From contig OX393552.1 in assembly GCA_947650365.1 (NCBI GenBank), forward strand, positions 18,177,851 through 18,241,850: a stretch of 64,000 bases of DNA, in the 5' to 3' direction. The position numbers and the translations under genes were made by a program. The notes under the pieces were generated by a model, which did not search any database, was not told the origin of the DNA, and worked only from the letters and a program-made list of their open reading frames with translations. The stretch comes from Chamaelirium japonicum. Its lineage: Eukaryota > Streptophyta > Magnoliopsida > Liliales > Melanthiaceae. Of the stretch, positions 57,701 through 60,700 are shown one piece after another; the stretch's first letter is position 1; each line of letters opens with the position of its first letter.

Positions 57701-60700
57701 CTATATATATTAACAACATTAAAAATAGGAAACATTTAATGGACGGTCGATAAAGCTTCGAACATTTGATGACCCTAGAAGTTTTAAAATTTACTGATTT
57801 TTAATGAGGATGATCACCTTACCCTAGAGAACACATCCACTAAAAATCACCAAATTCTAAAACTTCTGGGGTGGTAAACTACACCTGAGGTTTAGCAATG
57901 AAGCTACACCTCGGGTGTAGGATCCCTTTTCATATATATATATATATATATATATATATATATATATATATATATATATATATATATATATATATATATA
58001 GGGAAAAGGGATGTTGGACCTGAGGTGCAGCATCGTTGCTGCACCTTAGGCATTATTTTACCATTCTTAAAGTTTTGGAATTTGATAAAATTTGGTGACG
58101 GTGTTGTCTAGGTTAAGATGATCATCCTCACCAATTTTCATCAAATTCCAAAACTTCTAGGGGGGTCAAATGGTCGAAGCAAAATCAGCCGTCCGCAGTC
58201 ACCGTTAAAATCTGTAGATTTTGCTTCGACCATTTGACCCCCCTAGAAGTTTTGGAATTTGATGAAAATTGGTGAGGATGATCATCTTATCCTAGACAAC
58301 ACCCTCACCAAATTTTATCAAATTCTAAAACTTCTAGGAAGGTAAACAAGCGAGAGGTGCAGCATCGTTGCTACACCTCGGGTGCAGGCTCCCCGCCCCC
58401 ATATATATATATATATATATATATATATATATATATATATATATATATATATATATATATATATATATATATATATATATATATATATATATATATATAG
58501 TGATACATTGCTGCCGCTTAACGTGCGGCCACCCCCTAGGGGGTTTTTTTTCAAATTTGTTTTTGGAGGATGATCATCTCCCATTGATAGCGCACACATA
58601 AAATTTCAGCTCATTCTAAGACCTATAGGTCTATCAAGCTCGATTTTTATCAGTCGATCATTTTTACCGTCAATTGGATGAGCACATTTGATAGACCTAT
58701 AGATCTTACAATGAGCTGAAATTTTTTGTGTGTGCTATCAAAGGGGATGTGATCAACCTCCAAAAAAAAATTTGAAAAAAAAAAACCCTTAAGAGGGGGC
58801 CGCACGTTAAGCAGCCGCACTGTATATATATATATATATATATATATATATATATATATATATATATATATATATAGGGGAATGCTTAGGTGTGGTATGC
58901 GGTCCGTGCGGCCCGCGGTCCGCAGCCGTCCGATGCACCGACCGCGTGCATCCGATGCACGGAGTGGTGCATCGGACGGTTGCGGACCGCGGGCCGCACG
59001 GACCGCATACCATATATATATATATATATATATATATATATATATATATATATATATATATATATATAGGGGCATGCTATAATGCGGCATGCGTTAAGTG
59101 CGGCACCGCATAGTAGCCGTCTGATGCACCGCTGCATGCATCGCATGCACCCAACGCGTGCATCAGACGGCTGTGGTGCAGTGCTGCACGTACCGCATGC
59201 CGCATTATAGCATGCCCCTATATATATATATATATATATATATATATATATATATATATATATATGGCTAAAGGTTTATGTTACAATTCATAAACATTCA
59301 ATCAACTTGTATGATTCAGCTATATAACGACCATAACCCTGAATTACCCATATATATATATATATATATATATATATATATATATATATGGCTAAAGGTT
59401 TATGTCACAATTCATAAACATTCAATCAACTTGTATGATTCAGCTATATAACGACCATAACCCTGAATTACCCATCCAAAACTCAAGGAAAATTTTCAAA
59501 ACAGGAGTTTACACAATATACTGACAACTTTGTAATTGTATGAATTTTCGTGAGGCCCATAAGCTGCTCAATAGACAAAAAATGTGTAATGAGGAAAAAT
59601 ATAAGAAGAAATAGAAGTGGCAAGAAAATTAGCACGCTTGGTTAGCTCATAAGAAATATGATTATTGACTGATTGTATAGCTCTAAGTCGTCATAATGTA
59701 GAGATAATAGTGGAGCAAACAACCAAGTGGGATATAAGATGACACAAGACAAGCTTCGTGAGAAGGTATGCATGCAAATTTTTGTCACAATGCAGGAGAA
59801 GGAACAAAATAAGTCAACTTCTTGTTCTTCTGGGAAATTAGGGATATTTAAGAATGAAGATTGAGCAGAATACACTAACCTAATTGATATCAATGAAAGC
59901 ATGATGTTATAGCAAGTAGGAATAGAGAAGTCTTGTAGAATGCTAGACAAGTGACATATAAAGGATAAAGTCAAATTTAGGAGCATGACAATTGACAATT
60001 GACTCAACCACAGCATGTGCAATACTGGATCAAGAAGATGGTGAAATGGGCAAGATGACCTACCATATCATGAAACTAAGTATAGGACAAGAAAGAGGCC
60101 TACCGCCAGGAGAACAAAGCTTCAGATGAAGCTACACTAGAGTATTACTGAGATGTCTTCCACAGGAAAAGATGTACTTCTGCAACAATAGGAGAGAAAG
60201 CAAATATGGGACTAGAAAAAGTTAATTAAGCAACCAAATTCCATTTTAGACAAATTATATCATGAGTCGATGACCATATCAACAGAATGAGAAACATGAT
60301 ATTGTATGGACGTAAAATAATCAACAGAGTTGTCGATAAACTCAACATCAAGGCATGTGTGTAGAAGAAGCATCTTTGGAAATCCCTTGCGCCTCTCAAG
60401 ACGAGAATCTTCATGTGGCTGGCCATTCAAGAACGACTTCTAACCAGAGTCAACCTTCGTCGACGAAATAACCCGAATGACCAAGATATCTCTTGCACCC
60501 TTTGTCACATGCATAGGGAGGACGTGAACGACATGTTTCTTCGATGCCTCTACTCGCAAAAGCTATGGCGCATGTTGAAGCACCGATTTCACATCAAGGG
60601 TCACCCGGGTTCCATCCCTTCACTCTGGACTATGTGGCGGTCCCGGCGCATCAAGAAGCCTCTGCAACCGGCGTGGGACTTCCTGGTCGTCGGTCTTTGC

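Follow-up and report, generated by a model that had tools for sequence, protein, structure and literature searches.

A chain of palindromes between (TA)n tracts: a probable modular array of microsatellite-targeting miniature elements

The locus raises the question of how four palindromes came to stand in a row, each set between tracts of pure TA, in a 64-kb window of Chamaelirium japonicum DNA (the window being the whole stretch analysed). An earlier note had described six (TA)n tracts alternating with four palindromes, and this count is borne out: there are six pure tracts of 40-99 bp, and the palindromes, here called elements A-D, are the top four of the window. The chain, we propose, is very probably a modular array of the SaTar or MiM type, built of non-autonomous Mutator-like MITEs that target microsatellites. 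The observations that carry this proposal are that palindromes occupy the intervals between the pure TA tracts and rank as the four strongest in the window. Counting against it are the lack of A-D copies elsewhere in the window, the absence of a Mutator transposase domain from the ORFs scanned there, the missing G run of B and its weak links to the other elements, a half element (A0) at the left end, the clipped end of C and the mixed TA phases. The mobility of A-D and their membership in the Mutator group are suggested by their anatomy.

Table 1. Layout of the chain in window coordinates.
Feature	Positions	Strand	Basis
A0, half of an A-type hairpin element	57741..57931	.	BLAST, shuffles
TA tract 1, pure, 69 bp	57932..58000	.	
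Element A, palindrome of 400 bp	58001..58400	.	
TA tract 2, pure, 99 bp	58401..58499	.	
Element B, palindrome of 323 bp	58500..58822	.	
TA tract 3, pure, 54 bp	58823..58876	.	
Element C, palindrome of 135 bp	58877..59011	.	
TA tract 4, pure, 57 bp	59012..59068	.	
Element D, palindrome of 150 bp	59069..59218	.	
TA tract 5, pure, 47 bp; last 40 bp inside the 124-bp repeat	59219..59265	.	
Unit u copy 1, 84 bp	59266..59349	.	
TA tract 6, pure, 40 bp	59350..59389	.	
Unit u copy 2, 84 bp	59390..59473	.	

The chain had been placed at 57932..59474; the start of this interval does not hold, since A0 precedes tract 1. The window has seven perfect TA tracts of 20 bp or longer, and six of them belong to the chain.

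Palindromes were sought by aligning the TA-masked window to its reverse strand, with E <= 1e-3 and fewer than 1500 bases between the arms. The search kept 20 rows, the best four being A, B, C and D (E 4e-113 to 2e-34), a strength that we take as far above chance. Element B, the only one that was folded, reaches -109.5 kcal/mol, whereas its 100 shuffles average -32.2 and none is as good (z -19); it is 77% self-complementary. The arms of A match in 169 of 204 aligned columns. Its inner arms are identical across 73 bases (58114-58186) and its outer arms have clearly diverged, thus homogenisation of the arms may occur in this hairpin. A weaker sub-palindrome lies inside each arm of A (58070-58156 and 58234-58346), which results in four similar segments. 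A scan of 57600-59600 with Rfam gave no family at the gathering score.

Terminal inverted repeats define A-D, and the ends of A, C and D carry G runs: A has GGG at its start and CCCCC at its end, C opens with GGGGAATGC, and D has matching ends (GGGGCATGC...GCATGCCCC; end sequence GGGGCATGCTATAATGCGGCATGCG) with GGGG/CCCC tips. The ends of B have no G run. The claim that the hairpins sit exactly between TA tracts stands as to "between" and is slightly overstated as to "exactly": the outermost 17 bases of C's left arm have no counterpart in its right arm, and six bases at the left end of B have no partner on the right. None of A-D is broken up by another A-D element.

Each of A, B, C and D is flanked by TA on both sides, while A0 has TA at its outer end only. 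Mutator elements make target duplications of 8-11 bp. At A-D, where TA reaches right up to every element end, a duplication of 9-10 bp is unreadable owing to this continuity. The TA-side bases next to the element are A...A for A and C and A...T for B and D. An odd duplication length would suit the former pair and an even one the latter, given intact ends, and those of C are not intact. The phases at the edges of A-D thus differ, and a single duplication length cannot suit all four elements unless ends were altered.

The same note had called the hairpins unrelated, A and B sharing no obvious sequence with each other or with C and D, and had several families using the tract in turn. Neither statement is confirmed by the comparison of the elements with each other by BLAST and by shuffles, which points to about three groups instead: A0 with A, C with D, and B, which has weak links to both. 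C and D share 71% identity in an alignment that takes in the whole of C (135 bases) and 133 bases of D, which has 150 (E 1.8e-17 and 3.4e-16). A0 matches A at 75.7% over 181 and at 74.0% over 192 columns (E 2e-33 to 8e-33), A matches B at 66% over 104 columns (E 2.6e-5), and A0 matches B at 67% over 63 columns (E 0.003). When the arms were compared in 55 pairs, with 300 shuffles per pair, and the pairs made of both arms of one element are set aside, no shuffle matched the score of A0 against either A arm, of any of the four C-D arm pairs, of A0 against the left arm of B, or of the right arm of B against the left arm of D. The score was matched by one of 300 shuffles for A0 against B right and for A right against B left, by two for B left against D left, by seven for A left against B left and by ten for B right against D right; more than 15 of 300 matched it for B left against D right, for both A arms against B right and for three of the four B-C pairs. 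The links of B to the other groups are suggestive only.

Other low-scoring arm pairs, namely B right against C right (12 of 300 shuffles), A left against the left half of u (6) and A left against C left (9), are not claimed as kinship of A with u, A with C or B with C; the pairs tested number 55. A central motif common to A and C was likewise set aside since ten pairs were tested; 9 of 1000 shuffles equalled it (95 of 1000 for A and D). The fact that kin are neighbours (A0 next to A, C next to D) is not claimed as a sign of local transposition, as such an arrangement is expected by chance in 20% of cases (6 of 30 orders, counted by hand for five modules in three groups).

A0 runs from the centre of an element to its outer end, which abuts TA tract 1. 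The other half was not found by BLAST within the 64-kb window, where, left of A0, A has two short matches: 23 bases at 18038 (E 0.19) and 32 bases at 33088 (E 0.52). To the left of A0 there is an LTR element (53488-57715; LTRs of 142 and 136 bp, 85% identical), flanked by a perfect 5-bp duplication, ACATT, and ending 25 bp outside A0. It is DNA-similar to 42650-45785, whose minus-strand ORFs carry RVT_2 domains, and this similarity suggests that it is Copia-type; in four scanned ORFs of the element itself no Pfam family was found. The missing half of A0 was also considered to lie beyond this neighbour, and no match to A is present there at E<1. The Copia-type element moreover has its plain 5-bp duplication 25 bp outside A0, and it is rejected as the explanation of the missing half. 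BLAST detected no further copies of A-D in the window besides short weak matches. A 26-base degenerate pattern derived from the arms of D had no match in viral contigs, and an 18-base exact pattern occurred in five bacterial contigs of genome_contigs, approximately as expected by chance (about 7 estimated for 257 billion bases).

The right end of the chain is of a different nature. The earlier note had reported a duplicated 85-bp unit as a member of the chain; the duplication is real, the unit measures 84 bp, and in place of a chain unit we find a 124-bp tandem direct repeat with one mismatch (59226-59349 and 59350-59473), each copy of which consists of TA (40 bp) followed by u (84 bp). The two copies of u agree at 83 of 84 bases. 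Right of the second copy there is AT, followed by non-TA DNA, and a TA tract is absent. No significant inverted repeat was detected in u, whose halves give a best local alignment score of 7.0 that more than 15 of 300 shuffles equal; its ends, read inwards, are GGCTAA and GGGTAA. The repeat is best read as one tandem duplication and not as an inserted hairpin. The junction of this duplication would lie between the TA tract and the two-base AT of the flank, and transposition would not be needed. Tract 6 was probably copied from part of tract 5, and u probably flanked the microsatellite on the right from the outset. If tract 6 and the second copy of u come from one duplication, the six tracts do not equal six insertion boundaries. 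That u is a further small transposon was considered and is disfavoured, as the alignment of its halves is at shuffle level and copy 2 has no TA tract on its right.

We propose the following course of events. A founding TA microsatellite would have received palindromic miniature elements of about three groups, mobilised into the tract by a transposase supplied in trans from elsewhere. The window has 55 stop-to-stop ORFs of 110 aa or more; 40 of them were scanned, and none of these 40 gave a Mutator transposase domain. Each insertion would leave TA repeat on both sides, and this repeat, kept or lengthened by slippage, would serve as a fresh target; successive elements would in this manner align side by side, none interrupting another. 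The tract at the right, together with 84 bp of flank, would have been copied by one tandem duplication. The divergence between C and D (71% identity) and between A0 and A (74-76%) indicates that these are not recent local copies and suggests separate insertions. TA amounts to 366 bp in the chain, which, after subtraction of the duplicated 40 bp and of five duplications of 9-10 bp, leaves a founding tract of about 276-281 bp, on the assumption that splitting conserves tract length and that each insertion, if Mutator-like, adds 9-10 bp. As a founding tract of such length would otherwise be needed, growth of the tracts after insertion is likely at this locus. PMC5907723 cites a report of expansion in a maize family, which is a precedent for such growth, as is the case of MuTAnT described below.

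Stacking of this kind has been described in other plants. Valdes Franco et al. 2018 reported multimeric linear arrays of unrelated, microsatellite-linked elements termed SaTar (PMC5907723); in guayule the same source describes more than 300 clusters in which no element interrupts another, and rice, sorghum and citrus have arrays like these. The targeting of TA microsatellites with Micron-like stacking, as proposed in the earlier note, fits the anatomy and is the explanation published there (PMC5907723), and the idea of a trap in that note comes close to what was published on stacking that is modular and non-nested. The parts of the note on unrelated families and on the duplicated unit fail or are weakened. 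The chain shares with SaTar arrays the linear, non-nested order of TIR elements of different families and the microsatellite joints, often (TA)n (PMC5907723). The likeness is one of description, and C (135 bp) and D (150 bp) fall below the sizes given for guayule, rice and sorghum in PMC5907723, where 10 of 15 guayule families measure 380-530 bp and the sorghum ones 233-373 bp. MuTAnT of Medicago truncatula is a foldback element, with a 292-bp copy having 144-bp TIRs, which is found mostly in (TA)n and is made up of four similar segments with GGGG/CCCC tips of zero to four bases; where sites were amplified from ecotypes, the filled ones had a mean of 15 TA repeats per flank and empty sites nine (PMC4486113). 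The four segments of A and the G-run ends of A, C and D resemble MuTAnT, by description only, whereas B has neither a GGGG nor a CCCC tip. MuTAnT differs further in its mean TIR of 47 bp and in its known autonomous partner, none being seen in our window, and the Results and Discussion of that paper do not mention arrays (PMC4486113). The Ac-mMITE elements of pineapple are mostly flanked by (TA)n, and 46.1% of the full-length ones stand in non-nested, dinucleotide-linked clusters (Lin et al. 2021, PMC8449440); they are alike in description as to flanks and clusters, but their consensus ends are mostly GA and TC, in contrast to the GGG or GGGG starts of A, C and D. Micron, or rSaTar2, of rice is similarly MITE-like and resides mostly in (TA)n (PMC5907723, PMC12550479), again a comparison by description. 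Micron-type MITEs are widespread in Poaceae and Rosaceae (PMC12550479), and MiM, the name given in a carrot paper to MITEs in microsatellites, were found in 10 of 41 plant species in a survey cited there (PMC8227079).

The explanation that best withstands comparison with ours, rather unlikely as we judge it, is that MITEs of the same kind were brought together when breaks in fragile TA tracts were repaired, or when TA-ended circles recombined, and not by ordinary cut-and-paste transposition. It disputes the mechanism and not the type of array, and its probability overlaps with that of the preferred explanation. Circular intermediates with homologous recombination have been proposed for arrays in which many flanks do not fit a 10-bp duplication (PMC5907723), and filler DNA used during repair was offered as a reason for the occurrence of florendovirus sequences in (TA)n (PMC4241990). 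The clipped C, the half element A0 and the inconsistent TA phase agree with such joining, as does the u repeat, which has a junction inside a TA tract. However, both arms of A, B and D extend to the tract edges, or almost, which is unexpected of random capture. Quite doubtful is a reading in which the array grew by two coupled routes: elements transposed into TA tracts, and template switching inside the tracts copied a tract along with its neighbour, as in the 124-bp repeat; were it true, this switching would make new empty TA targets without insertion, and the locus would renew its own target site.

Assembly is difficult across TA tracts and hairpins and can switch in pure TA tracts, hence unrelated reads might have been joined at the TA repeats, and the joins indeed fall in pure TA tracts. 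Against such an artefact, the same architecture is supported by PCR in guayule (PMC5907723) and the window contains no N; neither excludes an error here, which we nevertheless deem improbable. Least probable is that the palindromes arose in place by inverted duplication and the TA by slippage, without transposition: the exact inner and diverged outer arms of A would allow homogenisation or recent inversion and the 124-bp repeat is local copying, but C and D, and A0 and A, are homologous over whole or half elements at 24-29% divergence, and local inversion would not predict four palindromes between TA tracts.

As a modular array of microsatellite-targeting MITEs, the locus is a further example of a kind already described in several plants and does not by itself change the known picture. 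It adds a compact stack with tiny elements (135 and 150 bp), diverged neighbours of the same group and one duplication of a tract. Comparison of such loci between accessions could help to establish the route into TA repeats and the role of cut-and-paste.

Several observations concern the rest of the window. The TA tract outside the chain (24799-24951, pure, 153 bp) has no hairpin inside and is apparently an unoccupied TA target. Some 100 bp to its right begins a repeat (25055-25650) flanking Copia coding ORFs, which recurs at 29835-30429 with 98% identity. The element at 53488-57715 has partial relatives at 42650-45785 and 36886-37499 and contains a 202-bp tandem duplication with 97% identity (55874-56277). 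The palindromes at 31402-31716 and 33593-33778 are not flanked by TA tracts and no clear target duplication was seen at them by eye. A palindrome of 181 bp at 35055-35235 is flanked on both sides by 9-bp direct repeats (AAATAGATA), which suggests a miniature element with a target duplication of Mutator length outside TA repeats.
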